From Flavobacteriales bacterium (lineage in GTDB: Bacteria; Bacteroidota; Bacteroidia; CAIKAF01), in NCBI GenBank assembly GCA_025055575.1, contig JANWWP010000017.1, positions 1-64,000 on the forward strand: a stretch of DNA of 64,000 nucleotides, in the 5' to 3' direction. Numbering within the stretch: position 1 is the stretch's first letter; every line of letters starts with the position of its first letter. The notes beneath the pieces were generated by a model. The model saw nothing but the letters and a program-made list of their open reading frames with translations, did not search any database and had not been told where the DNA came from. The translations under genes and the position numbers were made by a program. Below are positions 134-55,343 of this stretch, one piece after another.

Positions 134-2677
134 TCATCGCAAAAGTTCCTGGCGCAGCAAAGGCGAAATGATGCGCACCGCATCCCGCACCAGCACCCAG
201 GCCTCCCGCACGCCCCGCGCCGTGCCCTGCGCCAGATTTTTCCAGGCGCCCTCCAGCACCACACGGAAAAAATGAAACACCAAAAGCCGCCGGCTCCGGT
301 TCAAAGCCGATAGCAATGCCAACGGCTCGGCAGCACGGCGCCCGCCCCGGTTCAGATAGTCGAGGCAGGCCGCCCGCATCCCCGGATGCCGCATCGTCTG
401 ATACAGCGCATCCGCCAAAATGTTGATGGTGGCATTGGCCCGGTGTTCCCGCCGGATAAAGCGCCGCAAAACCCCTTGAAGGTTTTGGCCTGACAGCTTT
501 TCAGGAGGACAGGCATCCAGCAGGCAGCCCAGGGCCCACACGTCTGTGAGCGTGCCCGTCATGCCCCCGCCTGTCAGCGGATGCCGCATATTCAAGGCAT
601 CTCCCAGCAGGCAGGCCCCTTTCAAACGAAAACGCCGGGCATTAAATCGGTGGTTCGGCATCATTTTAAAATCGCCCTTCTCCAAGGCCGCCTCAAAAGC
701 CGCCTGGAGACCCTCCGGCAGCAAGGGCTTCAAATGCTGGCGCAGATACCTCGTCAATTCCGCGCCCGGCCGGGGGGGCGCATCCGGCGGAAAATCAATC
801 AGAATACGGGTTTCCGTACTGCTGATAGGATACACCAGGCAGGTATGGGGGCCGGCCAGAACCACATGTCCATGGGCCGGGTGCGGCAGAGTCGCGTTCT
901 CCAGGATCAGACCCAAAAAATATCCGGTGGTCACGGGCTTTTCCCCACACACATCCATCCTGAAGCGCGAAAAAGGCCCGTCAGCCAGCACAGTCAGGGG
1001 CGCCTTGAGGACTTGGCTTCCCCCCTCCATGCGCACCCACACCCCTTCCACGGCGCCCGTCTTTGGGTGGGTCAGCAGTTTCTCAGCCTCGGCCGTAATG
1101 CACCGGATGTTGGGATGGGCTTCGGCCATGCGGCGCAGATTTTCCAAAAGCCGCTTGTGGTGAAAAGCCTTTCCCTGGCCACCCTGGGGATAGGCAATCA
1201 CCACATCTTTGTCGTCATGCATCAGAGCGTAGCCCTCAATTGTTTGGGCGTCAATGCCTTGCAAAGCCGCGCCCAAACCTAGTTTTTCCAGCAAGAGCAT
1301 ACCGCCCGGCTGCATCAGTTCGCCAATAATACGTTCCGGCACGCGGGGATTTTTTTCCACCAGCGCCACCCGCCAGCCTTTTTTGGCCAGTGTGAGGGCT
1401 GCTGCCGTACCGGCTAATCCGGCGCCCACCACCAGCACATCCACTGTTGGCCCGGCCTCGGGCGTGGGCTCCTCCGGCAGGCTTTGATGCAGCCAGGCGC
1501 TCAGCCGGGCAGCGCCATCGGTGTCGGTGCGCAGGGCGATGTGGCTCAGCCGCTCGGCCACCATGGCGGCCGAAGGCCGGCCGCTCAGACGGGTCCGCAT
1601 CTGCCGAAGGGCCTTAGAAAACACCTCGCGCACATCGTGCATTCCATGGGTGTCCAACATCATGGCCGCCGCCTGCCCTTTTCGAATTTTCACCTCTTTC
1701 CTGTACACATCGGTGGAGCCAAAAAGTTCGGCCAGGGTGGCAATGGCCATCACTTGCGGTATGGCGCAAAACCTAAAAATATCCGGGTGGCTGAGGCTTT
1801 CCATATATCCCAGACATAGGGGCACGTGGCGCAGGGCATCTGCAATCAAGCCATCCAGGCAGGCCAGTTGGGCGTCTTCCGGCACAGCATTTTGAAAATC
1901 TTCCAGGCGGGATGCAAAGGGTTTCCATAAGGTTTCCGGCCAAAACCGACGCTGGCTTTGGATATCCTCCAGATAGTCGCGGATGATGTTGGTTTTTTGC
2001 AAAAACAATCCCATAGCGTTGGAAGCTTCTTCATTGCGCGCCTCCGAGGGCTTTTCATAACCCGAAATCTCAAAGAGTTGGGAAAGCCCAATACCCACCA
2101 AACCGGCTACGTAGTGACAGTACAGGTCATAATCGGCCAGGCTCACCACCGGCTTCTCCGTGAATTCGGCCATGCCGGCGCCCATCCGCCGCGCAATATC
2201 CAGTATCACACTCTGGTAGGCCGGATTCAAATCTTGCAAAACGCGCAACACCTTGTCATAGTGGTGCACCAGCACCCGATAGTCGGGTTTGTCGCCAATC
2301 CCCTGCAGAATGTTGCTTTCCTCAGGTTTAAGACGGTAAAAGGTGGTCAGCAGGTCTTTTTTCAGGGCGCTGCTCAGTTCCGGATCGTCTTCAATGGTGT
2401 CCAAGGCCCGACACACCAAATAGAAAACGGAGACCGCCTCCCGAAGCCCCTCAGGCAGGTGCATGATCACCACCGCAAAAGATCGGGACACTTTTTTGAG
2501 GGCGTTGTAGCAAAAAGTAAGGTCATCATCGCGCTGCCCGGAGAGCCGCAGGTCTATCCCTGAAGGACTGGCATAGTAGGCCGATTGACGAAGCCGCATT
2601 AAAGCTTTCAGCTCTTCGGGACGTGGGGTGTGGGTCAACAATTCTCTGAGCATTTTTGCCGGCAGTTTGAGGGACAA
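134..2677 (-). CDS. Fused squalene synthase (N-terminal) - squalene epoxidase/monooxygenase (C-terminal), 847 aa; likely start may be internal ATG at 2653
   Basis: N-terminal half: KKVSRSFAVVI, FYLVCRALDTIEDD, YCHYVAGLVGIGLSQLF, NAMGLFLQKTNIIRDYLEDI (both Asp-rich motifs of eukaryotic-type squalene synthase). C-terminal half from about aa 412: VDVLVVGAGLAGTAAAL (FAD GxGxxG), ERIIGELMQPGG, LLGDALNMRHPLTGGGMTGTL (squalene epoxidase). Single uninterrupted ORF. Annotated start is TTG. Confidence 0.93.
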   Translation of the reverse strand: MSLKLPAKMLRELLTHTPRPEELKALMRLRQSAYYASPSGIDLRLSGQRDDDLTFCYNALKKVSRSFAVVIMHLPEGLREAVSVFYLVCRALDTIEDDPELSSALKKDLLTTFYRLKPEESNILQGIGDKPDYRVLVHHYDKVLRVLQDLNPAYQSVILDIARRMGAGMAEFTEKPVVSLADYDLYCHYVAGLVGIGLSQLFEISGYEKPSEARNEEASNAMGLFLQKTNIIRDYLEDIQSQRRFWPETLWKPFASRLEDFQNAVPEDAQLACLDGLIADALRHVPLCLGYMESLSHPDIFRFCAIPQVMAIATLAELFGSTDVYRKEVKIRKGQAAAMMLDTHGMHDVREVFSKALRQMRTRLSGRPSAAMVAERLSHIALRTDTDGAARLSAWLHQSLPEEPTPEAGPTVDVLVVGAGLAGTAAALTLAKKGWRVALVEKNPRVPERIIGELMQPGGMLLLEKLGLGAALQGIDAQTIEGYALMHDDKDVVIAYPQGGQGKAFHHKRLLENLRRMAEAHPNIRCITAEAEKLLTHPKTGAVEGVWVRMEGGSQVLKAPLTVLADGPFSRFRMDVCGEKPVTTGYFLGLILENATLPHPAHGHVVLAGPHTCLVYPISSTETRILIDFPPDAPPRPGAELTRYLRQHLKPLLPEGLQAAFEAALEKGDFKMMPNHRFNARRFRLKGACLLGDALNMRHPLTGGGMTGTLTDVWALGCLLDACPPEKLSGQNLQGVLRRFIRREHRANATINILADALYQTMRHPGMRAACLDYLNRGGRRAAEPLALLSALNRSRRLLVFHFFRVVLEGAWKNLAQGTARGVREAWVLVRDAVRIISPLLRQELLR

Positions 2678-2732: not shown

Positions 2733-4922
2733 ATGCAGAAGTTTGATTTTTGGCGCTTTGAAAGCGATAATGGACGCCAGCGCTGGCGCTGGACCCCGGA
2801 ATTTGAGGAACGCCTGAGCGGCGATTTACTCCGGGATGTGGCCTGGTGGGTACAGTTGGAACCGGCGTTTCAGAAAACGCGTCAGGCCCATTCTGCCGAC
2901 CTGGGTCTGAGGCCCCCAGTGTTGGAAACCCTTGGCTCCAAAAACCAAGATGTAGAGAGCGCACTGGTGCGTGGGGTCCAATTTTTCCACACATTACAGT
3001 GCGCGGATGGGCACTGGCCCGGCGACTACGGGGGCCCTCATTTTCTTTTGCCCGGTCTTGTGATGGTGTGCCATGCCTGTGGTCATGCCCTCCCCTACCC
3101 TCAAAAAGTGGTTATGGCGGCCTACATGCTCCAACATCAGAACGAGGACGGAGGCTGGGGTTTGCACATCGAATCGCCCTCCACCCTGTTTGGCACCGGA
3201 ATGCAATATGTGGCCCTGCGCCTCCTGGGCATTCCGGCAGAAGATCCACGCCTGCAAAAAGCCCTTCATTGGATCCAGAGCCATGGCGGCATCACAGCCA
3301 TCCCGTCCTGGGGCAAATTTTACCTGGCAATTCTGGGTTTGCTGGACTGGCGGGGGGTGAACCCACTTCTTCCTGAGCTCTGGCTTTTACCCCGGTGGAT
3401 GCCGATCCATCCTTCGCGAATTTGGTGCCATGCGCGCATGGTGTATTTGCCCATGAGTTATGCTTATGGACGGCGCTTCGTATGCGCCCAGGACGCCACT
3501 TTGGAGGCCTTGCGCCAAGAATTGTATCCCCAGGGCTATGACCGCATACGTTGGAATGCCGTGCGCTACGCCTGTTGCCCGGAAGATGTGTACCACAAAC
3601 CCACAGCGGTAATGAAGGTGGCCAACGCACTCATGCGGGGCTTTGAAAAGCTGGGGCTGAAGCGACTCCGGAAAAAAGGCCTGGATTTCGCCTTTCGGTA
3701 CATCTGTGCCGAAGACGTACAAACCCGTTTCATCGACATCGGGCCTGTGAATAAAGTGCTCAACATGCTGTGCGTGTGTATTGAAAAGGGCTCTCAGAGT
3801 CCCGAATTCCAGCGCCACACCGAACGTTTGGACGATTATCTGTGGTGGGCCGAAGACGGTCTCAAAATGAATGGTTACAACGGTTCACAACTTTGGGATA
3901 CCGCTTTTGCAGCCCGGGCTTTGGCCGAGGCTCAGCATCCCGTCGCATCAGAGGCCCTGCGGGCTGCTTTTCGGTATCTGGATTTTGCCCAGGTGAAGGA
4001 GGAAGTTCCAATGCAAAAGGAATTTTTCCGGCACCCCTCGGTGGGCGGTTGGCCCTTTTCCACCCCTGATCACGGCTGGCCCATCACAGATTGCACTTCC
4101 GAAGCCCTGGATGCGGCCTTGGCAATAGCCCGCCTACCGTTTCTCCAGCCTTTTGAGGGCTTGCCCAAGCACCGCCTGCAACTCGCTGCGGACTTGATCC
4201 TTAGTTTCCAGAACCGGGATGGCGGCTGGGCCTCCTACGAATTGACCCGCGGGCCCCGCTGGCTGGAATGGCTCAATCCTTCTGAGGTGTTTTCTGCAAT
4301 TATGATTGACTATTCCTACACGGAATGCTCCTCCTCCTGCATCCAGGCACTCTGTGCTTTCCACCAAGAATTCCCGGAATACCGGTCTTCCGAAATATTG
4401 AAGGCCATCCGCCGGGGTGTGGATTTTATTTTGAGCAAACAAAACGAAGAAGGGCTGTGGTATGGCTCCTGGGGCGTGTGTTTCACCTACGGCACCTGGT
4501 TTGCTTCGCAGGCCCTCTCAGCCGCTTCCGCCCATCTAAATCCGAACGTCCGACGCGCATCCGAAAGCGCCTTAGCCCGCATGGCTGCTGCCTTGGCTTC
4601 GCGCCAGAATCCCGACGGAGGCTGGGGGGAGCACTACACTTCCTGCCTCCGAAGGGAATGGGTGAACCACTCCAGCCAGGTGATTCAAACGGCATGGGCG
4701 GTACTTTCTTTACTAAACACCCCCCACACGCCATTGGACAGGGTCAAACACGGCCTTCGTTTTATCCTGGAAAGTCAGGCACCTCACGGCGATTGGCCCC
4801 AGCAGCAGATTTCCGGTGTGTTCAATAAAACCTGTATGATCACTTACGCCAACTACCGCAATATTTTTCCGCTCTGGGCGCTGGGCAAAGCCCTCCGTAT
4901 CGGCATTCGAAGCGTTTCCTGA
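2733..4922 (+). CDS. Oxidosqualene cyclase, cycloartenol-synthase-like active site
   Basis: SRIWCHARMVYLPMSYAYG, MNGYNGSQLWDTAFA, DHGWPITDCTSEALDAAL, GLWYGSWGVCFTYGTWFA, FNKTCMITYANYRNIFPLWALG, QW-type repeats (QNxDGGW). DCTSE matches the OSC DCTAE motif, not the DxDD of squalene-hopene cyclases. Confidence 0.95.
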   Translation: MQKFDFWRFESDNGRQRWRWTPEFEERLSGDLLRDVAWWVQLEPAFQKTRQAHSADLGLRPPVLETLGSKNQDVESALVRGVQFFHTLQCADGHWPGDYGGPHFLLPGLVMVCHACGHALPYPQKVVMAAYMLQHQNEDGGWGLHIESPSTLFGTGMQYVALRLLGIPAEDPRLQKALHWIQSHGGITAIPSWGKFYLAILGLLDWRGVNPLLPELWLLPRWMPIHPSRIWCHARMVYLPMSYAYGRRFVCAQDATLEALRQELYPQGYDRIRWNAVRYACCPEDVYHKPTAVMKVANALMRGFEKLGLKRLRKKGLDFAFRYICAEDVQTRFIDIGPVNKVLNMLCVCIEKGSQSPEFQRHTERLDDYLWWAEDGLKMNGYNGSQLWDTAFAARALAEAQHPVASEALRAAFRYLDFAQVKEEVPMQKEFFRHPSVGGWPFSTPDHGWPITDCTSEALDAALAIARLPFLQPFEGLPKHRLQLAADLILSFQNRDGGWASYELTRGPRWLEWLNPSEVFSAIMIDYSYTECSSSCIQALCAFHQEFPEYRSSEILKAIRRGVDFILSKQNEEGLWYGSWGVCFTYGTWFASQALSAASAHLNPNVRRASESALARMAAALASRQNPDGGWGEHYTSCLRREWVNHSSQVIQTAWAVLSLLNTPHTPLDRVKHGLRFILESQAPHGDWPQQQISGVFNKTCMITYANYRNIFPLWALGKALRIGIRSVS

Positions 4923-4992: not shown

Positions 4993-5634
4993 CTATTTCC
5001 GGCCAAAATCTGCCGGGATTTCACCCCAGGCCGCCGTATCCCATTTTAGAAGTGGATTGCGCCAGTGGTGGCGTTGCAGCCACTCTTCCGCTTTTTGAAT
5101 CAAGTCATGGACGGGCGAACCGGTAGCTGGGGCGGCCTTGCGCGTATTGGCTTTTTTCTTACGGACCCAGGCCAGTGCTGTCTGACTGTCGGAATACACC
5201 GGGAGGTCCCAAAATCCATGTTTCTGACAGTACGCCAAAGCGTGCACAAGGGCCAGAAATTCTACAATATTGTTGGTGGCATGCGGAAAAGGCCCTCCAT
5301 GAAAAAGCAGTTGACCGTCCTTTAGATTCACCCCGCGGTATTCAGCCGCACCGGTCACCATGTTACAGGCGCCATCCACCGCGATGCCAAGGCCGGGACT
5401 ATTTGCTGTTGGGACGGCTATTGATGGGGTTTTCTCGAGCCGCTTTTGCCTAGATTTTGATGGCGGACCCGCCTTCCAGGCTTCTTCCGCTTCTTCACGA
5501 CTGGGATAACCTTTGTATAAAGCCCCAGGAAACCCTTTGACCGAATTTTCTGCTTCTTTCCACGTGGTGAACACTCCAGTCTGCCGACCTTTCCATACTA
5601 CGTAAAAGCTTTTGCCACTTGCGCCGGAAGGCAT
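4993..5634 (-). CDS. rnhA: Ribonuclease H with N-terminal RNase H1 hybrid-binding (caulimovirus VI-like) domain
   Basis: FYVVWKGRQTGVFTTWKEAENSVKGFPGALYKGYPSREEAEEAW followed by AVDGACN...NNIVEFLALVHAL...VYSDSQTALAW. Confidence 0.88.
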   Translation of the reverse strand: MPSGASGKSFYVVWKGRQTGVFTTWKEAENSVKGFPGALYKGYPSREEAEEAWKAGPPSKSRQKRLEKTPSIAVPTANSPGLGIAVDGACNMVTGAAEYRGVNLKDGQLLFHGGPFPHATNNIVEFLALVHALAYCQKHGFWDLPVYSDSQTALAWVRKKKANTRKAAPATGSPVHDLIQKAEEWLQRHHWRNPLLKWDTAAWGEIPADFGRK

Positions 5635-6449
5635 TAATTAGAACGGTTGGAGTCTGCTAATTTTTTCACATAAATATTTCCCGCGGCCGTTTCAGCCACT
5701 TTTTTTGGAAGGTAACGGGCCAGGGCTGCTCCCATTTTGTTCACCAGGCCGGGCACCACTTCTGTTTTGCCGGCCAACATGGCTTTTATGGCAACACGTG
5801 CCACGGCTTCCGGGGTCATGCCCACCGCATCGGACATTTTCCTTAAAGGCTCCATACCGGCTCTGTCAATAAAATTAGTTTTTGTGGCGCCCGGACTCAC
5901 GCAAGTAACACTCACGCGCAGCCGCTGACGTTGACATTCCTGGCGGAGCCCTCGCGACATCTGTACCATGAAAGCCTTGGAGGCTGCATACACCGACATC
6001 GTGGGCAGCGCCTGATACGCCGTGCTGCTGCTGATATTCAGAATGTAGGAAGGCCCATTCTGATGAAGAATCGGAAGAAAGGCATGACTGAGGATGAGCG
6101 GGGCCTGCACATTCACGTGCAACATACGCAATTGCTCCTCCAGGGGCAGGGTCTGAAACCAACCCCACATGCCGTAGCCGGCATTGTTCACCAAAATCTT
6201 CAATTCTGAAGCGAAGCGATCCCGAGCGTAATCAACTAATGACTGAACCTGGGATGGGATCGATAAATCCGCTGGAAACACATCAGCTTGCACAGAATAC
6301 TCCTTGCGGATGGCTTCTGCCGCCGATTCCAGCTCAGCCAGGCTGCGCGCCGATAATAACAGGTCGTAGCCGCGCGTGGCCAAACCGCGGGCCAAGGCCA
6401 GGCCAATACCTTTGGAAGCGCCGGTAACCAGCGCCCTGGGTCGTTTCAC
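5634..6449 (-). CDS. Short-chain dehydrogenase/reductase (SDR); GTG start overlaps the stop of the upstream gene
   Basis: VTGASKGIGLALARGL, NNAGYGMWG, ISSSTAYQALPTMSVYAASKAF (YxxxK). Confidence 0.9.
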   Translation of the reverse strand: MKRPRALVTGASKGIGLALARGLATRGYDLLLSARSLAELESAAEAIRKEYSVQADVFPADLSIPSQVQSLVDYARDRFASELKILVNNAGYGMWGWFQTLPLEEQLRMLHVNVQAPLILSHAFLPILHQNGPSYILNISSSTAYQALPTMSVYAASKAFMVQMSRGLRQECQRQRLRVSVTCVSPGATKTNFIDRAGMEPLRKMSDAVGMTPEAVARVAIKAMLAGKTEVVPGLVNKMGAALARYLPKKVAETAAGNIYVKKLADSNRSN

Positions 6450-7261
6450 TTTACAAACTTATAAAGGTACTGATAGAGTTTCGGTCGGGCGTTTTCTTTT
6501 CTTGGCTTGTATTTGCCGGTAACGAAAGGAATGTACATCACCCGGCGTCGGCTCTCCTCACCTGTGACAGAGGACTTTTCCACACGATGCCAAAGGCGGC
6601 CGTCGTGCACTGTGAGGTCCCCGGCTTGAATGTCCAGCCCCACTTCCTCGGGATCAGGGGTATGACTGATAAAGTATTTTTTTCTGAATAAAGTGCTCCA
6701 GGCCGATTGGTTGTGGGTGCCGGGAATCACCCTGAGCCCCCCGCGGGCAGCCGGGTAATCATCAAAATGCAGGCCCACGTTCAGCATGGGCATTAGTTTT
6801 TTAAAGTAAAAGACATCGCGCAGGGCATCGGTGTGCCAACCCAAACGACTGTAGCCGCTCTTGTCGCAGTTAACATAATGGTTGAACACAGCGCCGTCTT
6901 TTTCCATTACTCCAATGCGACAATCCTGAGGATCGCAATTCAATAAGGGAAAAAGGGCCTCCAGCCTTTTGTCAGAAAGTATTTTGGCCACTTCCTGACT
7001 GTATAAGGATGTGAAAGCCATTCTTTGCAGCAGGGGCTTCCGGTCAATATCCAAACCAAATTTCAGAGGCACTCCCCGAACCCTCAATATTTCGTTTTTT
7101 AAAATATATTCCTGCACTTGGCGCATATCTTCCAGCACCGCTTGTACTTTTTCCCTGGAAATGAAACCTCTGAATTGCAGAAACCCATTTTCCTCAAAAA
7201 AATTCAGTTGCTCCTCGGTGAGCCTCTCTTCCAAATAAAAGATGACTTTATTCACCCGCAT
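6446..7261 (-). CDS. Phytanoyl-CoA dioxygenase (PhyH) family Fe(II)/2OG oxygenase
   Basis: GWHTDALRD (HxD) ... GDLTVHDGRLWHRVEKS (distal His), RGGLRVIPGTHNQS. Confidence 0.82.
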   Translation of the reverse strand: MRVNKVIFYLEERLTEEQLNFFEENGFLQFRGFISREKVQAVLEDMRQVQEYILKNEILRVRGVPLKFGLDIDRKPLLQRMAFTSLYSQEVAKILSDKRLEALFPLLNCDPQDCRIGVMEKDGAVFNHYVNCDKSGYSRLGWHTDALRDVFYFKKLMPMLNVGLHFDDYPAARGGLRVIPGTHNQSAWSTLFRKKYFISHTPDPEEVGLDIQAGDLTVHDGRLWHRVEKSSVTGEESRRRVMYIPFVTGKYKPRKENARPKLYQYLYKFVK

Positions 7262-34177: not shown

Positions 34178-35182
34178 TTATGGCCCGTATATCAGTTTTT
34201 CAGCTACGATTTCAGGAGCCACTTTCTCCATACATGAACAGGAGTGCGGGATGCATTTTTTAGAACAATCCAGCGCCCCGGTGAGCGCCAGCACGCGCGG
34301 GCCTATGGGGGCCCATCGGCCAGGATGCATGGGGCTGCGCGGCACAAACAGACCGATGGTATTTAATCCTAAAGCTGCCGCCACATGCAAAGGGCCTGTC
34401 GAGGGCGCTGCAATACTGTGGCAGGTGGCGATAAAACGTATGAATTCCTCCAGATTAAATTGCCCGCACACATTCAGAGCCTTTACGTTCCCGGATTCCC
34501 GGATAAGATATTCCGCTTCAGCTTGATGTTCTGAAAGTCCAGAAACAAATATTTCTGCATTTTTTAACGACCCGAGAATCCTGAGAAGGGAAATCCAATG
34601 CTTGCGGGGCCAAAGGGGTGCACTTTTGTTGCTGAAAGGATGAAGTAGTATGCGCAGCGAGCCGGCAGAATGAGAATTCCCATTCAGGGACCAGAGCTTT
34701 AATTGGGATAATTCATCCAGAGCGCAGGGCCACACACGCGGCAAAAATTTTTTAACCAGCACCAGGTTGAGTTGGGTCTCATGCCAAGGAGAATGCCGGC
34801 GAGAGAAAAAAATTCTTTCATTGGAATATAACCAGTGCCACCACCGGCCCGCTGTTCCTGTGCGCCGTCGAAAATTCAGTTTCAGAGCCATCCGGGCTTC
34901 TTCAGGCCGGCTGTAGAAAAAAACGATGTGACTGCGTTCTGTTTCCGGCCATGGCACACGGCCTTCCATAAAATCTTCAAGGGCCACCCAGGAATCCAAA
35001 AAAGTGCAACGCTGCACCAAAGGCTCCCATGACTTGCGACAAATAAAGCGAAGAGCCCAATCCGGATATGTGTGGTGTATCCAACGCAATGACCACAGGC
35101 TCACCATGACGTCGCCCATGTTGTCGCTGCGAAGAATGGTGAGCGAGGGCTGTGGAGATGGTTCTTCTGCCGATAATTTCAA
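34178..35182 (-). CDS. Glycosyltransferase family 9 (heptosyltransferase-like); probable TTG start overlapping the cphA stop
   Basis: LTILRSDNMGDVMVSLWSLRWI, ILLHPFSNKSAPLWPRKHW, CHSIAAPSTGPLHVAAALGLNTIGLF. Confidence 0.83.
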   Translation of the reverse strand: MKLSAEEPSPQPSLTILRSDNMGDVMVSLWSLRWIHHTYPDWALRFICRKSWEPLVQRCTFLDSWVALEDFMEGRVPWPETERSHIVFFYSRPEEARMALKLNFRRRTGTAGRWWHWLYSNERIFFSRRHSPWHETQLNLVLVKKFLPRVWPCALDELSQLKLWSLNGNSHSAGSLRILLHPFSNKSAPLWPRKHWISLLRILGSLKNAEIFVSGLSEHQAEAEYLIRESGNVKALNVCGQFNLEEFIRFIATCHSIAAPSTGPLHVAAALGLNTIGLFVPRSPMHPGRWAPIGPRVLALTGALDCSKKCIPHSCSCMEKVAPEIVAEKLIYGP

Positions 35183-37806
35183 ATGCTGATGAGCTCGCGG
35201 TCTTCTTCTTCTTTGTATGCCATAATCTGCTCCAAAGCGTCCGGAACCACATCGCTGCAAATGACGATAAAACTGCCTTTTTCCGCAGTTTTCAAAGCAT
35301 GATCTATGGCTTCGCGCTCGGTCTTTATCACTTCCACAGGCTTGGAGGGGTCTGTGCCTTGAATGCCCGTAGTGAGCAACTGAATGATTTCGTCCTCCGA
35401 ACGACCCCGCAGATTGCGATCCTGCCGAATGATAATTTTATCAAAATACCGTGCCGCTTCGGCCCCAAGGCTGATGATGTCCTCATCGCGGCGGTCACCC
35501 ACGCCGGCAATAATGCCCACCTTGGGCCGGGCATCCACCCGGGAAATAAATTGTCCGATGGCGTGCAAACCGGCGGTGTTGTGAGCGTAGTCCACCATGA
35601 CGGTGAAATTGTGAAAATGGAAAATATTCATTCGGCCCGGGGTTTGGGCAGGGGAAGGGATGAAGGTATTGAGTGCGATACGAATATCTTCCACCGAAAT
35701 GCCTTTAACAAAAGCTGCCAGGACGGCCGCAAGGGCGTTCGCCACGTTAAATTCAGCCTTACCACCAAAAGTGATGGGCACGTTGGACACCCGTTCCACC
35801 CGTATTTTCCAGTTCCCCTTAAGCACGGTGAGATAACCGTTTTCATAGACGGCCGCCAGACCGCCTTCCTGACAGTGTTTGCGCACACGGGGATTGTTTT
35901 CGTCCAGAGAAAATAAGGCAATACGGCATGTGAGATCCTGGCGCATGGCATACACGCGGTCGTCATCCGCGTTCAAAACCGCATAACCTTCCGGGAAAAC
36001 ACTTTGCGGCACCACACTTTTCACCCGGCTCAACTGATCCAGATTATCAATACCCCCAAGGCCCAAATGATCGGCGGCAATATTGGTGACCACGGCCACA
36101 TCGCACTGATGAAATCCCAACCCCGCACGGAGAATGCCACCTCGGGCTGTTTCCAATACCGCAAAATCCACTGTGGGATCCTTCAATACGAATTCCGCCG
36201 ATACCGGCCCGGTGCAATCTCCTTTCATCATGAGTTGATTCTGAATATACACGCCATCCGTTGTGGTGTACCCCGGCTTGTAACCGGCCTGTTTCACGAT
36301 GTGGGCTATCAGGCGCGTTGTGGTCGTTTTTCCATTGGTGCCTGTAATGGCAATAATGGGTATGCGCGCCGAGGTGCCGGGGGGATACAGCATGTCCAGG
36401 ACAGGCTCAGCCACATTGCGGGGCAGGCCTTCGGTGGGCTCCAAATGCATGCGAAAGCCGGGCGCTGCATTTACTTCCAGAACAGCGCCGCCGTTCTCAG
36501 ACAAGGGCGTGGATAGGTCCGGGGCCATAATATCTATGCCGCAGATATCCAATCCAATGATGCGCGCGATGCGTTCGCACATAAAAATGTTGGAGGGATG
36601 CACCAAATCGGTGACGTCGGTAGCCGTACCTCCCGTGCTGATATTGGCTGTTGGCTTGAGATAGAGGGTTTCGCCCTCCGGCAAAACGGAATCCAGAGTG
36701 AGCCCCTTGTCTTGCAAAATTTTTTCAGTGAATTCGTCCACTTTAATGGACGTGAGGACTTTCTCATGCCCATAGCCGCGCCGCGGATCGGAATTCACAA
36801 TATCAATCAGTTGCTGAATGGTGTGGACACCATCGCCTGTGACGGCCGCCGGTGTGCGGCGGGCAGCGGCCACAAATTTGTAATTGATGACCAGCACCCG
36901 ATGGTCGTGACCGGTAATAAACTTTTCTACAATGACACCCCGGCTGTATTTGCGGGCGGCTTCAAAACCGGCCACCAATTCCTCCCAGTTTCGCAGATTG
37001 GTGGTGGCGCCCTTTCCATGATTTCCGTTCACGGGCTTGGTAACCAAAGGATATCCTATGCGGCGCGCGGCGGCTTCCAAGTCTTCCATATCATAACAAA
37101 TGCGCCCTTTGGGAACCGGAATTTCAGCGGCTTCCAATAGATTTTTCGTATCTTCTTTGTCGCAGGCTATCTCCACGGCAATGTTACTGGTTTGACTGGT
37201 AACCGTGGCCTGAATGCGCTTTTGGTTTACGCCGTACCCCAGCTGTACCAAAGAATGACGGTTGAGCCGAATATAGGGTATTTTGCGCCGTATGGCTTCT
37301 TCAACGATCGAAGCCGTACTGGGCCCCAATCTTTCTTCTTCGCGAATTTCCCGAAGTTTTTGAATGTCTTCGCTGAGATCATACTCTGTGCCATCCACAA
37401 GCGCCTGGGCAATCCGAACGGAGGCCTTGGCCGCATATATACCGGCTTTTTCTTCGTAGTAGCTGAACACCACGTGGTACACTCCTTTCTGAGATGTTTC
37501 CCGCGTGCGGCCAAAGCCTACATCCATGCCGGCCAGCGTCTGCAATTCCAAGGCAATATGCTCCACCACGTGCCCCATCCAGGTGCCTTCGGCCACGCGA
37601 CTGAAAAATCCGCCCGGGACACCCTCGCTGCACCTGTGTTCATACATCGTGGGGAACAGGCTGGTGAGTCGGTCATAAAAACCAGGTATTTTGCTTGTGG
37701 GCTTTTCTTCCAGGTCCTCCAAATCCAAAAGCATGACTATCAGTTTATGCCTGCGTATGGACCAGTAGTTAGGCCCTTTCATCACTTTTATGTCTAGAAT
37801 TTTCAT
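35179..37806 (-). CDS. cphA: Cyanophycin synthetase
   Basis: 875 aa; N-terminal domain + ATP-grasp (VTKPVNGNHGKGATTNL) + Mur ligase (IAITGTNGKTTTTRLIAHIVKQAG, GGILRAGLGFHQCDVAVVTNIAADHLG). Confidence 0.96.
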   Translation of the reverse strand: MKILDIKVMKGPNYWSIRRHKLIVMLLDLEDLEEKPTSKIPGFYDRLTSLFPTMYEHRCSEGVPGGFFSRVAEGTWMGHVVEHIALELQTLAGMDVGFGRTRETSQKGVYHVVFSYYEEKAGIYAAKASVRIAQALVDGTEYDLSEDIQKLREIREEERLGPSTASIVEEAIRRKIPYIRLNRHSLVQLGYGVNQKRIQATVTSQTSNIAVEIACDKEDTKNLLEAAEIPVPKGRICYDMEDLEAAARRIGYPLVTKPVNGNHGKGATTNLRNWEELVAGFEAARKYSRGVIVEKFITGHDHRVLVINYKFVAAARRTPAAVTGDGVHTIQQLIDIVNSDPRRGYGHEKVLTSIKVDEFTEKILQDKGLTLDSVLPEGETLYLKPTANISTGGTATDVTDLVHPSNIFMCERIARIIGLDICGIDIMAPDLSTPLSENGGAVLEVNAAPGFRMHLEPTEGLPRNVAEPVLDMLYPPGTSARIPIIAITGTNGKTTTTRLIAHIVKQAGYKPGYTTTDGVYIQNQLMMKGDCTGPVSAEFVLKDPTVDFAVLETARGGILRAGLGFHQCDVAVVTNIAADHLGLGGIDNLDQLSRVKSVVPQSVFPEGYAVLNADDDRVYAMRQDLTCRIALFSLDENNPRVRKHCQEGGLAAVYENGYLTVLKGNWKIRVERVSNVPITFGGKAEFNVANALAAVLAAFVKGISVEDIRIALNTFIPSPAQTPGRMNIFHFHNFTVMVDYAHNTAGLHAIGQFISRVDARPKVGIIAGVGDRRDEDIISLGAEAARYFDKIIIRQDRNLRGRSEDEIIQLLTTGIQGTDPSKPVEVIKTEREAIDHALKTAEKGSFIVICSDVVPDALEQIMAYKEEEDRELISI

Positions 37807-38526: not shown

Positions 38527-41500
38527 ATGTTTTCTAGATTAGTAAATTATTCAATTAAAAATAATTACTTAGTATTAATAGGAATTTTTTTAGGTGTGAT
38601 ATGGGGCATCTGGGAAGCCCGTAACCTGGCGATTGATGCTGTCCCCGATATCACCAACAATCAGGTGCAGCTGATCACGACGGCCCCAGCCTTTAGCGCC
38701 GAGGACATGGAGCGTCTGGTCACCTTCCCACTGGAACAGGCCCTGCGCAACATTCCCGGGTTGATGGAAATGCGCAGTTTTTCCCGGCTGGGTCTTTCAG
38801 TCATCACGCTTGTTTTCAATGACGAAACCGATGTGTATTGGGCCCGACAACAAATTTCAGAACGTCTGCCACAAGCCCGGGAACAGTTGCCGGCCGGAGT
38901 GGCACCGCCATTTTTGGCGCCGGTCACCACCGGCCTGGGGGAGATTTTTCAATATGTTCTCAGGCCCGCTCCCGGATTTGAAAAACGATACGATGCCCTG
39001 GCCCTGCGCTCCATCCAGGACTGGGTGGTGCGCCGTCAACTGCTGGGAGTGCCTGGTGTGGCAGATGTCAGCAGCTTTGGCGGGCGGGTGCTGCAGTACG
39101 TGGTGAGCTACAACCCAGCGGTTCTAAAAACCTACGGCCTGTCGCCCGAAAATCTGGCGGAAGCCCTAAACCGGGCCAGTGGCGTTGCGGGCGGCGCTTA
39201 TATTGAAAAAGGAAATAGGGCTTTTTTTCTGCGGGCTGATGGGCTTTTTAATACCCCACAGGATATTGAAAACACCGTGGTGGGAATAAGTTCGGATGGC
39301 ACGCCCATTCGAATTCGGAATGTGGCCAAAGTTCATACAGGCTTCGCCCTGCCTTACGGGGGCATGGTCTACAACGACAGCCTGGAAGTGGCCGGCGGGA
39401 TTGTGATGATGCTGAAAGGAGAAAACGGCAACCGGGTGGTTCAAAATGTGAAAAAAAGGATAGAGGAAATTCGAAGCACCCTGCCAGAAGGTGTGATTCT
39501 GGAACCGTTTCTAGACCGGAGCAGACTGGTGGGAAGTGTCCTGCGGACCGTTCGAAATAATCTTGTGGAAGGCGCCTTAATTGTTCTGGGAGTCCTTTCC
39601 ATATTGTTAGGAAGCATCCGGGCCGGACTTATCGTGGCCTCAGTGATTCCTTTAGCCCTCCTCTTTGCGGTGGTGATGATGAAACACTTTGGCCTAAGCG
39701 GAAACCTAATGAGTCTGGGAGCGCTGGACTTTGGTTTGATTGTGGACGGTGCCGTGATCGTGGTGGAGGGGGTTCTGTATGGCCTGCATACGCATGTGTC
39801 GCGCCAGATGCACGGTTCAGAAAGAGCTTTTCTTGCAGATATTATTCAAAAATCCAGTGGGCGCCTTCTTCGCAGCGCCTTCTTCGGGCAATTGATCATA
39901 CTGGCTGTGTATCTCCCCATCCTGAGCCTGGAGGGTATTGAAGGAAAAATGTTTCGACCCATGGCCCTCACTGTGATTTTTGCCCTGGCCGGAGCCTTCA
40001 TTTTATCATTCACGTATGTTCCAGCCCTCACCACTCTGGTGCTTCGACGCGCTGACGGTCACCATTCCGAAAAAGCTGAAAAGCTCTTGGGGCCTTTAGC
40101 GAAGTTCCAGTCCAAAATTCTGTTCTTTTTATTAAGAAGACCTTACTGGGTGGTGCTGGCATTGTTGTTCATGCTGCTCATATCAGTTAGCCTAATCCGT
40201 CGAATGGGAGGCGAATTTATTCCCACTTTGCCGGAGGGAGATTTAGCCATCGAGACACGGCTGACCACGGGCAGCAGTTTAACTTCTTCCCTTGGAACAG
40301 TGAAGCAAGGGGCCGCTTTATTGCTTAAGAAATTTCCTGAAGTCCTTAGGGTGGTGAGCAAAACAGGAACCGGCGAAATTCCAACAGATCCTATGCCAAT
40401 GGAAGCCAGTGATATGATGGTGGTCCTGCGGGACAAATCGGAATGGGTATCGGCCAGAACTTGGGCGGATCTCATTTCACAAATTCAGGATTGTCTGAAA
40501 GGTATTCCCGGCGTTTATTTTTCTGTTCAATATCCTGTGGCCATGCGTTTTAATGAATTGTTGACAGGGGCCCGGCAGGATGTAGTGTGCAAGGTGTTCG
40601 GCGAAAACCTGGATACCTTGGTAATGCTGGCCGAACAAATTGGACAGGAAGCGGAAAAGATTCCCGGGGTGGCCAGTGTCTATATTGAATCCTTGAAAGG
40701 CGCTTCCGAAATTCGAGTTCAAATACAGAGAGAGCAAGCCGCCCGATTAGGAGTGGACATGGGCTCCCTGGCCCTTGCTTTGAGCACGGCTTTTGCCGGC
40801 CAGCAAACCGGGATGTTATTTCAAAATGAACGGCGGCATCCTATCGTCCTCCGGCTCGATTCGGCACTCAGATCCGATTTGGAGACATTGGAAAGGCTGC
40901 CGGTGGCCACCAAGGCGGGAGGATGGGTGCCTCTGGGCCAGGTAGCTTCCATCTACGTTGGAGAGGGCATCCATCAAATCCAGCGCGAAGATGCCCGACG
41001 GCGAATTGTGGTGGGCTTTAATGTGTTGGAAGCAGATGTGGAATCGGTGGTGCAACAACTGCAAAGGCAATTGAGCCTTCATCCGCTGCCTGCAGGTTAT
41101 ACCCTGAAAATAGGGGGCGCCTATGAGCATCTGGTCTCGGCGCGGCGCCGCTTGTTTTTGGTAGTGCCCTTGGCTTTGGCTGTCATTTTTATTTTTTTAT
41201 TCATGGCATTCAGGAGTTTATTGCCGGTCTGGATCGTGTTTTTAGCGGTTCCATTCTCTGCGGTGGGAGGCCTAATGGCTCTTTCCCTTCGTCACATGCC
41301 CTTCAGCATCAGCGGAGGGGTTGGTTTTGTCGTGCTTTTTGGGGTTTCTGTCCTCAATGGGATTGTTTTAGTGAACGAAATCCGCCGCCTGATGTCGGAA
41401 GAAAAGTATTCCCTCTACAGAGCCGTGTTCAAAGCCAGCCAGATAAGACTTCGGCCCATTTTAATTACCGCCCTGGTAGCCTCTCTTGGTTTTCTTCCTA

Positions 41501-41658
41501 TGGCCATCAGCACCGGCAACGGAGCTGAGGTGCAACGTCCATTGGCCACGGTTGTCATTGGCGGACTAATGATTTCCACCTTCCTGACGCTCATTTTGTT
41601 ACCCTTTTTCTTTATTATTTTCTCAAAATTATTTAAAACTAAAACAGAAAATCATTAA
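38527..41658 (+). CDS. CusA/CzcA family heavy-metal efflux RND transporter
   Basis: 1043 aa; NLAIDAVPDITNNQVQLITTAPAFSAEDMERLVTFPLEQAL; DFGLIVDGAVIVVEG (HME-type TM4 motif). Confidence 0.93.
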   Translation: MFSRLVNYSIKNNYLVLIGIFLGVIWGIWEARNLAIDAVPDITNNQVQLITTAPAFSAEDMERLVTFPLEQALRNIPGLMEMRSFSRLGLSVITLVFNDETDVYWARQQISERLPQAREQLPAGVAPPFLAPVTTGLGEIFQYVLRPAPGFEKRYDALALRSIQDWVVRRQLLGVPGVADVSSFGGRVLQYVVSYNPAVLKTYGLSPENLAEALNRASGVAGGAYIEKGNRAFFLRADGLFNTPQDIENTVVGISSDGTPIRIRNVAKVHTGFALPYGGMVYNDSLEVAGGIVMMLKGENGNRVVQNVKKRIEEIRSTLPEGVILEPFLDRSRLVGSVLRTVRNNLVEGALIVLGVLSILLGSIRAGLIVASVIPLALLFAVVMMKHFGLSGNLMSLGALDFGLIVDGAVIVVEGVLYGLHTHVSRQMHGSERAFLADIIQKSSGRLLRSAFFGQLIILAVYLPILSLEGIEGKMFRPMALTVIFALAGAFILSFTYVPALTTLVLRRADGHHSEKAEKLLGPLAKFQSKILFFLLRRPYWVVLALLFMLLISVSLIRRMGGEFIPTLPEGDLAIETRLTTGSSLTSSLGTVKQGAALLLKKFPEVLRVVSKTGTGEIPTDPMPMEASDMMVVLRDKSEWVSARTWADLISQIQDCLKGIPGVYFSVQYPVAMRFNELLTGARQDVVCKVFGENLDTLVMLAEQIGQEAEKIPGVASVYIESLKGASEIRVQIQREQAARLGVDMGSLALALSTAFAGQQTGMLFQNERRHPIVLRLDSALRSDLETLERLPVATKAGGWVPLGQVASIYVGEGIHQIQREDARRRIVVGFNVLEADVESVVQQLQRQLSLHPLPAGYTLKIGGAYEHLVSARRRLFLVVPLALAVIFIFLFMAFRSLLPVWIVFLAVPFSAVGGLMALSLRHMPFSISGGVGFVVLFGVSVLNGIVLVNEIRRLMSEEKYSLYRAVFKASQIRLRPILITALVASLGFLPMAISTGNGAEVQRPLATVVIGGLMISTFLTLILLPFFFIIFSKLFKTKTENH

Positions 41659-42914: not shown

Positions 42915-44216
42915 ATGGGGTGGATTTCCGGCGCAGTTTGGCTTGTGTTGTGCGGCGCCTGGATCATGTGGGCAGGCCGCCATCTGACGCCCCGTGTCTC
43001 GCAACGTTGGCTGGGAGGGCTGTGGGCGTTAAAAATAGCCGCGGGGTTTGCGATATGGTGGATTTATGCCCATTACTATTCGGATGAAAAAACAGGAGAC
43101 ATTATCTCCTATCATGCGGATGGTTTAGAGCTGCGAAAAATTTTCTGGCAGTCGCCCTTAAAATACGTTCAGGTATTGTTGGGGATGCACAACAACTATG
43201 AGGAAGAATTTGCCCCACTCTACAACACCATGCGCTATTGGTACGAGGAATGGAAAGGCAGCAACCTGATCATTGAACCGCGGAACATGATCCGTCTCAG
43301 TTCCCTGGTAGGCTTGCTGACGGGCGGCTGGATTTTCTCACACATTGTGGTTTTTTCCTGTTTGGCCATGCTGGGGATTTTGTTTTTGACAGCCGGATTT
43401 CGGAGCGCTGGCATTTTTTCGGACGAACGGTGGCTGATGGCCGGCGCCACCTTAGCGCCATCGGCATTGGCCTGGACTTCGGCCCCCATGCGCGAGGCGC
43501 CTATGATGCTGGGTTTGGGTATGGCTGTGGCGGGCGCCGTGTGGGTCCGTAGAAACCTTTCATTCAAGGCTTTTGCTACGCTTCTTGGTGGTTTTTGGTG
43601 GCTGGCTTATTTTAAAACTCATGTGGCTCTGACTTTATTTATGCCGGTTGTATTGTATTTGCTAGCACCTGCTGACCGACGCCAAGCCCTGGTATTATAT
43701 GGAGGCTCCCTTCTGGCGCTCCTGATATTTCTCTACGCCACCCCGTCAGGCGCCTTCGTTTTGAAAGTGGTAGCCAAAAAGCGGATAGATTTTATCCATG
43801 TGGCTGAGGTGTGGGAGGCCCGCAGCCGCATTCCGGTGCCGGAAGTCCCCCAACGTTTGGAACAACTTCCACAAAGTGTGGCCCACGCCCTCACCAATAC
43901 CTTTTTTCAACCTATGCCCTGGCGGGTCAAGGGCCTGCTGGACAGCTTGGCTTTGGGAGAAAACATTTTGTTTTCTGCCCTTTTGGCTTTATCGCTCTGG
44001 CGGATCTGGCGGTTCCAGAATTTACCACTGAATTTTGTGATGCTGGTGGTTCTGTTCAGTTTTTTTCAGGCCTTACTGATAGGGCTTACCACTTCTGTCG
44101 CCGGTGCCATAGTGCGCTATAAATGCAGCATTCTGGCGATACTTACGCCTTTTCTTTTGTTAAGCCTCCAGCCAAAAAATGCGAGAGAAACAAAAAATCT
44201 CAAAACCGATGAATGA
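42915..44216 (+). CDS. Uncharacterized polytopic membrane protein
   Basis: 433 aa, multiple TM segments; no clear motif. Confidence 0.65.
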   Translation: MGWISGAVWLVLCGAWIMWAGRHLTPRVSQRWLGGLWALKIAAGFAIWWIYAHYYSDEKTGDIISYHADGLELRKIFWQSPLKYVQVLLGMHNNYEEEFAPLYNTMRYWYEEWKGSNLIIEPRNMIRLSSLVGLLTGGWIFSHIVVFSCLAMLGILFLTAGFRSAGIFSDERWLMAGATLAPSALAWTSAPMREAPMMLGLGMAVAGAVWVRRNLSFKAFATLLGGFWWLAYFKTHVALTLFMPVVLYLLAPADRRQALVLYGGSLLALLIFLYATPSGAFVLKVVAKKRIDFIHVAEVWEARSRIPVPEVPQRLEQLPQSVAHALTNTFFQPMPWRVKGLLDSLALGENILFSALLALSLWRIWRFQNLPLNFVMLVVLFSFFQALLIGLTTSVAGAIVRYKCSILAILTPFLLLSLQPKNARETKNLKTDE

Positions 44217-45147
44217 CGGTGATGGCGTATCCGTCAAGTTCCTTCCGGGCTTTTTCAAGATCTTCCGTAAAACCTAGCAGATAACCGCCACCGCCCGAAC
44301 CGCACAACTTCAGGTAATAAGCCTCTGTTTCCAGACCGCGCTGCCACACTTTTTTGAATTTGCCCGGAATCATAGGGGTGAGATAGCTGAGCAGAAAGCG
44401 GCTCAGGTCTTTGACGTTGGCCAAAAGCTCCCGGGTCTCCCCTTTCAGAAAGGCTTTAATGCAATTGTCGTTAAATGGAATCATCTCCTTTTTCAGGAGT
44501 TTAAGGAATCCTTTTTCTTTCCGGCATTTATCCAGGAAAAGATTGACGAGCGGCTTGGTGTTGCCGGGCGTCCCCGTGTTGATCAGGAAGATTCCACCCT
44601 TGCCGTTCAGACGCGATTCCGGGATGCCCACCGCATCAATGGCCGATTTGTTACGAATGAGAAGTGGGTGTTCTAAGTAACAAATTAAGGGGTCGATGCC
44701 CGAACTGGTGCCATGAAAATAGCTTTCCATGGCGGCCAGGTGGTTTTTCAATGTGAGAATTTGATCCCCTGTTATGGACTCGTCGTTATAAATTTTATCA
44801 AAAGCGTACCTGTCATACACCGCCGCCACCAAGGCGCCGGAACTCCCCACCCCAAAGCCCTGCGGTATGGTGCTGTCAAAAATCAAACCTCTTTCTACAT
44901 CACGCTCCAAGGCTTCAATATCCAACCGAAAGCCCAGGGAACCTTCCTCCTGTTTTTTCCTTAAAAAAGCCGCATATTCTTTGAGGCTAAGGTTGGAGGC
45001 ACGGGCCTCCTCTTCCGTCAAATTGGAGGAGCTGAAGGCCAGTTTGCCTTTATAAAAATCGAAGGGAATGGAAAGCCCCATAGAGTTGTGAATGAGACTG
45101 TATTCCCCAAACAAGAGGATTTTAGATTTGAAAGTGTCTCTTTTCAT
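44200..45147 (-). CDS. Mevalonate kinase (GHMP family)
   Basis: KILLFGEYSLIHNSMGLSIPF, IPQGFGVGSSGALVAAVYDRYA, GTSSGIDPLICYL, KLCGSGGGGYLLGF. Confidence 0.87.
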   Translation of the reverse strand: MKRDTFKSKILLFGEYSLIHNSMGLSIPFDFYKGKLAFSSSNLTEEEARASNLSLKEYAAFLRKKQEEGSLGFRLDIEALERDVERGLIFDSTIPQGFGVGSSGALVAAVYDRYAFDKIYNDESITGDQILTLKNHLAAMESYFHGTSSGIDPLICYLEHPLLIRNKSAIDAVGIPESRLNGKGGIFLINTGTPGNTKPLVNLFLDKCRKEKGFLKLLKKEMIPFNDNCIKAFLKGETRELLANVKDLSRFLLSYLTPMIPGKFKKVWQRGLETEAYYLKLCGSGGGGYLLGFTEDLEKARKELDGYAITVIHRF

Positions 45148-45151
45148 GGTT

Positions 45152-46246
45152 TCAGAGGATTCTTTCGGGCCCTGTACCTTCCTTATCTTGAATGATGTCT
45201 TCGGGACGCAAATTTAAACCGGATTTGGATATTAAGAAGTCATTAACATTTTCCTTTTCACTGTCCGGAAAAAGGAGATGCAAATTGGGCCCTGCGTCCA
45301 GGGTGAAGGTGACTCGGCATCCGGTGTTGGCACGGAAGGCTTTTAACGCATCCAACAGCGCAAGGGTGGTGGGTTTCATTAAAATAAACCACGGCCGGGA
45401 GGTCATCATCATAGCGTGCAAGGACAGCGCTTCGTGTTCAGTGATAAATGAAAAGGTCTCCCAGTCTCCAGAGACCAGGGCCATTTTCATCCTTTCAATA
45501 TTCTGAAAAGCCTGGCGGAAACGCTCAGCAGCGTAAGGATGCCCATTCATAAGGCCATGGCCTGCGCGGCTGCTTACGGCTTTTTCCTGTCGATCGCACA
45601 CCACAATCCAGTCGTTTAGACCCCGGAACTCCGGGTGAATATTCCATGAGACGGGAAAGGCTTCTTCGTCCGAGGATTTTTCTTCTAAAGGATGCTTTCC
45701 CCACAAGACAAAACCACCATACACAGAGCGGGAAGCGCTGCCCGAAGCCAGGCGCGAAAGGCGCGAGGCTTCGCTGAAAAAGTCTTCTTTTTTGGCTAAG
45801 GCGCCCGTGCATTCGTTTTCCAGTGTGCATAAAGCCAGGCAAAACGCGCTCATTCCGGAAGCTGAAGATGCAATACCCGCCGAATGCGGAAAGGTATTCC
45901 GCGAACGCACCCACAAGTGCTTTCCCTTGAGAAAAGGCTTTTGCGGCAGGAGGGATTGACAAAATGTTTTCAGCTTGTCTTCAAAAGCAGGCTTAGGCTG
46001 GCCGTCCAAAAGAAAAGATACCTCCATGGCACCGCTTTCGGACTCCGTGCAGACCACTTCCGTTTCCGTGTAACAAGCAGAAAGGGTGATGCTCAGGGAA
46101 GGATTGGCCGGCAGCTGTCCTTCAAATTTTCCCCAATATTTCACCAGCGCAATGTTGGAAGGACTTTTCCAGGCAGTGCGCACTAAAATTTGGGAGGGAT
46201 CAGGAAACCGGGCTAACGAAGCGCTGGGCCATTCACTCTGTGTCAT
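45152..46246 (-). CDS. Diphosphomevalonate decarboxylase (start at MTQSEW...)
   Basis: SPSNIALVKYWGKFEGQLPANPSLSITLS, FPHSAGIASSASGMSAFCLAL, SGSASRSVYGGFVLWG, AGPNLHLLF. Confidence 0.93.
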   Translation of the reverse strand: MTQSEWPSASLARFPDPSQILVRTAWKSPSNIALVKYWGKFEGQLPANPSLSITLSACYTETEVVCTESESGAMEVSFLLDGQPKPAFEDKLKTFCQSLLPQKPFLKGKHLWVRSRNTFPHSAGIASSASGMSAFCLALCTLENECTGALAKKEDFFSEASRLSRLASGSASRSVYGGFVLWGKHPLEEKSSDEEAFPVSWNIHPEFRGLNDWIVVCDRQEKAVSSRAGHGLMNGHPYAAERFRQAFQNIERMKMALVSGDWETFSFITEHEALSLHAMMMTSRPWFILMKPTTLALLDALKAFRANTGCRVTFTLDAGPNLHLLFPDSEKENVNDFLISKSGLNLRPEDIIQDKEGTGPERIL

Positions 46247-47156
46247 AAATAAATTCATGATATTGAAACACTGGCCATAGATTGCGGGTTTCAAAATAGT
46301 TTTTTACTTCTTCAGGAGGTCTTTTGGTGTATGCCAGAAGGAAATCGCCACCCCATGCACCCAGGGATTTGACCACTCCCTCAAAGTCTTGAAATTGCAG
46401 AACCTGTATGGGAGTTTTCTGTATTAACAACCCAATTTGGTTTTCATGTTCTTTAAGAACTTCAGAGGCTGTTTCGAAATCGGAAGCTTTCAGAAAAGCT
46501 TGCGTGAGGGCCGAAATTCTCTCCACTATCTCCTTTTTTTTATTGGACGACACCTGACGATAACGATGGATTTCATCGGAGGAGGACTGTTTTCGGCCAG
46601 AATACACAAAATAAAAATACCGTCGGACTTCAGGTGCAATGGAAACCGGCGCCACAAAGGGATTAGATACCTGCGTGCGCTGATACAAAATCGGACCTTT
46701 AGCGAAGGCACAGGCCACGTCATAGCCCGATCCGCCGAAAGTATCGGCCTGCAGAAGATAGGGGTTCACCCCGGAAAAAGCGGCCAGAAGAGCCAGCAAA
46801 GTGGCGCTGCTGCCCAAGCCCCAAAAACGCGGATAATCCGTGGCAGTGGAAATCTTGGAAGAAAGAAATAAATTCCTTTGACCCGACAAAATCCGAGCGC
46901 TGGAAAGAATATGACCCAGCCGCCTAGCCAGTTCGGAATCGGTGGTTTCTACCACCTGAAGCTGCTTGTCAAAAACAGCCTGAAACCAGAGCTCCCCTTG
47001 GTCTTTAGCTTCCCAATGGAGCGACTCCGAAATATTTTTTTCCCAACGCATGCTTTGGCCAAACACCACCGGTAGAGCCACACTTAAAGCCCCATCCAGA
47101 ATGGCATACTCCCCCATGAGCAAAACCTTCCCCCGGGCCTGGAGTATTTCTGGCAT
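46233..47156 (-). CDS. GYDIA-type GHMP kinase, candidate phosphomevalonate kinase
   Basis: ARGKVLLMGEYAILDGALSVALP, FWGLGSSATLLALLAAFSG, GGSGYDVACAFAKGPILY; between HMGR and decarboxylase genes. Confidence 0.82.
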   Translation of the reverse strand: MPEILQARGKVLLMGEYAILDGALSVALPVVFGQSMRWEKNISESLHWEAKDQGELWFQAVFDKQLQVVETTDSELARRLGHILSSARILSGQRNLFLSSKISTATDYPRFWGLGSSATLLALLAAFSGVNPYLLQADTFGGSGYDVACAFAKGPILYQRTQVSNPFVAPVSIAPEVRRYFYFVYSGRKQSSSDEIHRYRQVSSNKKKEIVERISALTQAFLKASDFETASEVLKEHENQIGLLIQKTPIQVLQFQDFEGVVKSLGAWGGDFLLAYTKRPPEEVKNYFETRNLWPVFQYHEFIYDTE

Positions 47157-54100: not shown

Positions 54101-54267
54101 GCTCCGGGATATACCGTTATTATGGTAAGCGTATTGGCATCGAACTTGGGTAGGAGGTTATAGTTAAGCCTTTGATAGGAAATAATTCCAAATAGAATGA
54201 GTCCCGTGAAAACGACTGTAACCAGAAGGGGACGTCGGATGGAGAGCTCTGTGAGGCGCATGGGCAC
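51130..54267 (-). CDS. AcrB-like efflux RND transporter permease
   Basis: 1045 aa; YNLLPKFDANTLTIITVYPGASAREVE, LSLVVGILVDDAIVILENIYRH. Confidence 0.95.
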   Translation of the reverse strand: MPMRLTELSIRRPLLVTVVFTGLILFGIISYQRLNYNLLPKFDANTLTIITVYPGASAREVETSVTKVLEEALSSMEGLDRINANSQQNVSVIILELKNHVDVNNALADAQRKVDQVMSQLPDEVQKPSISKFSTDDVPVLRIALSAELSNRELYEIVDKTIRPVLANVPGVGAVQVLGATPRQFRVNLKKDRLEALGLTPVMVSQALQASGLSVPAGTLEDRFNDLTLTFDSKFTSAEELQDLLVYMTPSGGTVYLKDVAEVADDEEEPSTLSRINGRPSIGLTIMKQTDANSVEVSALVKARLAELEKQWAQKKLKFDIASDQSTYTLASANAVVEDLALAILIVALVMLFFLHSVRSSLFVLVALPTSMIPTFILMYALNMSLNLMTLMALSLVVGILVDDAIVILENIYRHMEMGKDRRRAALDGRAEIGFTAIAITLVDVVVFVPLSLAGGIIGNILREFSLVVVASTLMSLLVCFTLTPLLASRFGKLTHLTGSSLWIRLNRAFENLIASARDAYARILRWSLAHKRYVLGGTLLAMAGSFLLPALGFIGATFVKQGDRSQFNLRIEMPPGTSLMETNRIVLQAERILFSHPEVISVFTNVGYSSTGFTGLTSSNPHFSESTVNLVPPGQRSLSSTDFAVLVEKEISTIPGVMATVAPITVTGNTGEADVSISVKSPNRDSLRVAAEKIMEILKKTPGTKYHQFSTKIPRPEIRIVLNKEKMTRLGLNAAQVGLTLATAVRGNEDLKVTVEGEEHTLLVQNDAAFRRSPEDLKSLSFPTATGQNVYLDQFAVLKETLGESVLERTDRLPSVRVNANVVGRSPGTVGREVAQAIGRLRLPSNVTWQFVGNQQRMQESFSSLGFSLIIAILLVYLVMVALYESLLYPFVVLFALPLASIGAFLALALTMEDLSIFSIIGIIMLMGLVAKNGILLVDFTNQLKEEGMALTEALIEAGRERFRPILMTTLAMVFGMLPIALNKSAGAEVKNGMAWVIIGGLTSSLALTLVVVPCIYYIFEKLKLRWAARSASRLPASAAEGVL

Positions 54268-54272
54268 AACAG

Positions 54273-55328: not shown

Positions 55329-55343
55329 GGCAGGCTTAATAAG

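Follow-up and report, generated by a model that had tools for sequence, protein, structure and literature searches.

A predicted cycloartenol synthase gene beside a squalene synthase-epoxidase fusion in a Flavobacteriales genome

The cyclase gene, its fused neighbor and the host genome

The window, by which we mean the whole 64,000-nucleotide stretch of Flavobacteriales DNA analyzed here, carries an oxidosqualene cyclase gene at positions 2733 to 4922 (plus strand) that is complete, with an ATG start, no internal stops and a product of 729 amino acids. Both cyclase domains are full length (PF13249, 179.8 bits; PF13243, 214.7 bits), the NCBIfam model TIGR01787 is matched at 655.9, above its cut-off of 322.7, and a phmmer comparison with human lanosterol synthase (1w6k) covers residues 69 to 720 with an E value of 7.7e-196. 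Family membership and residue alignment are both far beyond chance, and the oxidosqualene cyclase that an earlier note had placed here is confirmed. The best NCBIfam model is TIGR03463 (2,3-oxidosqualene cyclase), which scores 696 bits and under its curated cut-off of 851; the protein is therefore not assigned to that subfamily, the model having probably been calibrated on other bacterial cyclases. The DCTAE-type catalytic motif is kept as D453-C-T-S-E. In the sole other genome of the genus (G001), the cyclase is 71% identical and matches Flavobacteriales MAG SKYG26; against this relative, NG86 estimates of dN 0.24 and dS 1.71, the latter near saturation, indicate purifying selection.

On the other side of a 55-bp intergenic region (2678 to 2732) common to both transcription units lies a divergent gene at 134 to 2677 (minus strand) that encodes a squalene synthase-squalene epoxidase fusion. 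It is 847 amino acids long from a TTG at 2677, or 839 from an ATG at 2653, which would widen the intergenic region to 79 bp. The squalene synthase domain (1538 to 2524, minus strand; amino acids 52 to 380) matches TIGR01559 at 389 bits against a cut-off of 287. The FAD/squalene epoxidase domain (221 to 1447, minus strand) has its FAD motif from amino acid 411 and a PF08491 match of 242 bits at amino acids 558 to 819, so that oxidosqualene supply is encoded in the genome. We infer from these domains that the protein is bifunctional and would feed the cyclase with oxidosqualene.

The second genome of the genus carries the same single-ORF fusion (L111, 597 to 3149, plus strand; an open frame of 851 amino acids, 60% identical), both copies placing squalene synthase at the N terminus and squalene epoxidase at the C terminus, and its recurrence in a different assembly makes an assembly error unlikely. 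Because squalene synthase and epoxidase are separate at other Bacteroidota loci, on the same strand and usually adjacent (gap of -67 to +309 bases; 1.8 kb at one locus), the fusion probably arose by the joining of such neighbors. A 1141-amino-acid ORF in a Polyangiaceae MAG (L061, 4451 to 7876, plus strand), directly upstream of a cyclase with the Tyr, His, Ile (Y,H,I) triad discussed below, has the epoxidase N-terminal and squalene synthase C-terminal, and this reversed order probably reflects an independent fusion event. Our literature search found no description of a natural bacterial squalene synthase-epoxidase fusion, which is not proof of absence.

Isoprenoid precursors probably come from mevalonate, since genes of that pathway occupy 44200 to 48559 (minus strand) of the window, including those for HMG-CoA reductase (47156 to 48559, minus strand) and diphosphomevalonate decarboxylase (45152 to 46294, minus strand); two polyprenyl synthases are encoded elsewhere in the host genome. 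The window also encodes, no more than 20 kb apart, two efflux pumps of the AcrB type with adaptors of the HlyD type (38527 to 41658, plus strand; 51130 to 56822, minus strand) and a gene for a cyanophycin-synthetase-like protein with a PF18921 N-terminal domain, Mur ligase domains and ATP-grasp (35179 to 37806, minus strand).

The host genome (2.44 Mb, 99.8% complete) contains no match to cytochrome P450, and the usual C-14 demethylation is therefore missing. It also contains no ERG4/ERG24-type reductase by a search that was positive in two myxobacterial control genomes, and no separate hopene cyclase was found in it. Among 31 Bacteroidota-type cyclase neighborhoods, all with the cyclase itself, squalene synthase occurs in 21, epoxidase in 20 and polyprenyl synthase in 13, and no tailoring enzyme is a conserved part of these neighborhoods. 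Two genes of the window, encoding an SDR (5634 to 6449) and a phytanoyl-CoA dioxygenase-like protein (6446 to 7261), were weighed as candidates for sterol tailoring and set aside because neither is a conserved neighbor at Bacteroidota cyclase loci. The cyclase is present in nine of the 15 other genomes of the window's family and absent from all six of genus g5. Of 395 evenly sampled Bacteroidia genomes, only 11 carry a sterol cyclase; 10 of these, counting that of the window, belong to this family and one does not, so that within this sample sterol cyclases are rare in the class and concentrated in the family.

Residues that steer the product

Alignment with 1w6k pairs Tyr382 (codon 3876 to 3878) with human T381, His447 (4071 to 4073) with C449, Ile451 (4083 to 4085) with V453, and the catalytic proton donor Asp453 (4089 to 4091), within the DCTSE motif, with D455, all on the plus strand. 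The codon positions given for these residues in the earlier note agree with this alignment and with arithmetic from the start at 2733. In human numbering, the enzyme carries the cycloartenol synthase (CAS) signature Y381/H449/I453, and the lanosterol synthase (LAS) marker Val453 is absent, Ile451 standing in its place. Other sterol-cyclase positions are kept (human Y98, W192, W230, H232, W387, F444, C456, Y503, C533, W581 and F696). Arabidopsis CAS1 has Y410, H477 and I481 at the three triad positions, and its motifs TADHGWPISDC and KMQGYNGSQ (PMC7060231) are nearly identical to DHGWPITDC and KMNGYNGSQ of the window enzyme.

The three positions differ in how much they say about bacterial products. 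Across 90 bacterial cyclase rows, some of them duplicates of one gene, we counted 64 Y,H,I, 18 Y,N,V, five Y,Q,V and three Y,Q,I triads. These rows were partly selected by motif: one of two scan patterns, DG[MLA]KM[NQ]G[YT], accepts no residue but Tyr or Thr at position 381, and the second puts no constraint there. The alignment-based contig scan returned 80 loci and the single-sequence contig scan none; a cyclase found later via protein search alone (L112) is also Y,H,I. Because Tyr381 is invariant in all 90 rows, including the methanotroph Y,N,V enzymes and those pairing N/Q449 with V453, it conveys no product information in bacteria. Likewise, His449 is not decisive by itself, since it also occurs in the Y,H,V lanosterol enzymes reported from the group of bacteria to which Methylococcus and Gemmata belong (Dahlin 2016, PMC5101207). 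Among bacteria with analyzed lipids, the choice between I453 and V453 correlated completely with product (Wei 2016, PMC4919349), and within bacteria only this position discriminates product. A triad swap in the Saprolegnia enzyme, meant to probe whether Y,H,I is sufficient, did not yield mutant protein (PMC5101207).

In bacteria, the full triad of the earlier note thus does not amount to three independent lines of evidence. The choice of cycloartenol rather than lanosterol that had been drawn from it is well supported as a prediction, resting on one residue and not three. Two cyclases from genus g3 of the window's family (L010 and L011) have a mixed Y,Q,I triad in the motif FEQGWPITDC, with a LAS-like residue at 449 and a CAS-like residue at 453, and their product is not predictable.

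Phylogeny and the ancestral triad

Cyclase trees were built from 79 rows, and from 44 rows with bootstraps, with human lanosterol synthase as the only eukaryotic sterol cyclase and plant CAS left out. The window cyclase groups with that of its genus mate (support 100/100), and the two together branch off first within a clade of Bacteroidota and Methylococcales cyclases (100/95), as sister to the rest of it (99/98). This clade is mostly Y,H,I, and biochemically characterized CAS enzymes are absent from the tree. The Y,H,I rows of myxobacteria lie outside it. The clade corresponds to group 2d of Wei 2016 (PMC4919349), in which Fluviicola taffensis would fall by elimination from the counts given there. 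When an AU test was applied to a single clade for the cyclases of the window's family, the p value was 0.045; this speaks against monophyly only marginally, and nothing here rests on it.

Enzymes of methanotrophs with Y,N/Q,V nest in this clade, which apart from them and the Y,Q,I cyclases of genus g3 is Y,H,I throughout. The 79-row tree requires a minimum of one change at position 381, seven at 449 and five at 453, and parsimony places Y,H,I at the base of the clade with the methanotroph type derived. We are therefore inclined, with some reserve, to regard H449 and I453 as ancestral in the clade and the methanotroph lanosterol-type cyclases as converted cycloartenol synthases (H to N/Q, I to V). 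The Y,Q,I enzymes in the window's family indicate that a mixed state can exist.

The survey also turned up Y,H,I cyclases in other hosts. Two from Methylothermaceae MAGs (L021 and L029) are nested among Bacteroidota, unlike the Y,N/Q,V enzymes of Methylococcaceae, and represent either cycloartenol-making methanotrophs or mis-binning of the MAGs. Others come from two Spirochaetota MAGs (L086 and L088) and a Chlorobiota MAG (L055), and neither phylum is among the sterol-cyclase carriers in Wei 2016 (PMC4919349).

Predicted product and known systems

Taken together, we consider that the gene probably encodes a working oxidosqualene cyclase with cycloartenol as its main product, a reading from sequence to which we assign a probability of about 0.82. 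In the proposed route, the divergently encoded fusion would convert farnesyl diphosphate to squalene and then to (3S)-2,3-oxidosqualene, and Asp453 of the cyclase would protonate the epoxide. The substrate, folded chair-boat-chair, would give the protosteryl cation, and methyl and hydride 1,2-shifts would carry the charge to C9; the course from Asp protonation through the protosteryl cation to C9 is established oxidosqualene cyclase chemistry. A pocket shaped by His447, Tyr382 and the bulky Ile451 may then direct loss of a C19 proton with closure of the 9,19-cyclopropane, in place of the C8 proton loss that gives lanosterol. Because genes for demethylation and reduction were not found, cycloartenol is probably the end sterol, presumably with a role in the membrane.

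Alternatively, residues outside the triad may steer the final deprotonation, so that the main product is parkeol or lanosterol, or a mixture of these with cycloartenol. Second-sphere residues reportedly affect the product profile, according to a study cited in PMC4919349. Pocket positions outside the triad do vary by lineage, such as K698, where other Bacteroidota and methanotrophs mostly have F, H, G or Y. Furthermore, the window enzyme belongs to a divergent, deep-branching lineage that shares about 50% identity with the nearest cyclases of other genera, and its product thus has no anchor from a close characterized relative. The TIGR03463 score under the curated cut-off also counts against the cycloartenol reading. 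In favor of that reading, CAS enzymes invariably have Y,H,I (Dahlin 2016, PMC5101207), the pattern found here. The V453 that marks the tested bacterial lanosterol makers is absent, and we regard a different or mixed tetracyclic product as unlikely.

It is less likely still that the enzyme converts oxidosqualene to a non-steroidal triterpenol, of the arborane type or another pentacycle. A bacterial oxidosqualene cyclase that makes arborane triterpenols was reportedly described by Banta in 2017, and the bacterium is said to be Eudoraea adriatica, another member of the Bacteroidota. The Eudoraea cyclase is labelled LAS, that is, V453, and placed in group 2a (Wei 2016, PMC4919349); an arborane producer typed in this way would mean that the residue rule misses some product classes. 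Group 2a is nevertheless different from group 2d, whose counterpart is the Bacteroidota and Methylococcales clade that holds the window enzyme. That the gene has decayed or encodes a squalene-hopene cyclase is highly improbable, as both readings are already contradicted. Hopene cyclases have the Pfam SHC fold domains in common with the window protein, but the hopene-cyclase model TIGR01507 scores 274 bits and does not reach its cut-off of 431, compared with 656 to 696 for the oxidosqualene models. The DCTSE motif with its catalytic D453 and the adjacent squalene epoxidase gene also argue against that reading, and the stop-free frame under purifying selection argues against decay.

A cycloartenol-type cyclase in this genome is an expected example and overturns nothing, since a Bacteroidota cycloartenol producer was already reported in 2016. 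The main by-products of interest are the squalene synthase-epoxidase fusion and a tree pattern that suggests conversion of CAS-type to LAS-type enzymes in methanotrophs. When sterols occur in rocks they are taken to indicate eukaryotes, with cycloartenol as a plant-type precursor; every bacterial cycloartenol synthase with good support makes this interpretation weaker. Such enzymes also bear on which product came first, and the window gene adds a deep Bacteroidota branch to those available. In addition, a natural squalene synthase-epoxidase fusion could help feed oxidosqualene in laboratory hosts.

Our findings can be set beside several known systems. The earlier note had named myxobacteria such as Stigmatella as the bacterial source of cycloartenol, which is correct for Stigmatella and Cystobacter and incomplete, since cycloartenol was also detected in Fluviicola taffensis (Bacteroidota) and in Methyloceanibacter caenitepidi, an alphaproteobacterium; each of the two has a squalene epoxidase and lacks genes for steps beyond the cyclase, and F. 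taffensis makes only cycloartenol (PMC4919349). By its published description, F. taffensis Fluta_3214 resembles the window enzyme in being a Y,H,I predicted CAS from Bacteroidota without downstream sterol genes, whereas the window has squalene synthase and epoxidase fused and lies on a deep branch. The Stigmatella and Cystobacter enzymes are likewise of the bacterial CAS type, with cycloartenol detected in those organisms, yet fall in a different clade. Arabidopsis CAS1, compared over its motifs, has the equivalent triad and near-identical flanking sequence, while the gene organization of the window is bacterial. The lanosterol-type enzymes of Methylococcales (Methylobacter and others) belong to the same large clade and also have an adjoining squalene epoxidase, but their triad is Y,N/Q,V and those organisms make 4-methyl and 4,4-dimethyl sterols (PMC4919349). 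Finally, human lanosterol synthase (1W6K) is a full-length homolog with 46% identity and the same catalytic Asp, and differs in its product-steering triad, which is T,C,V.
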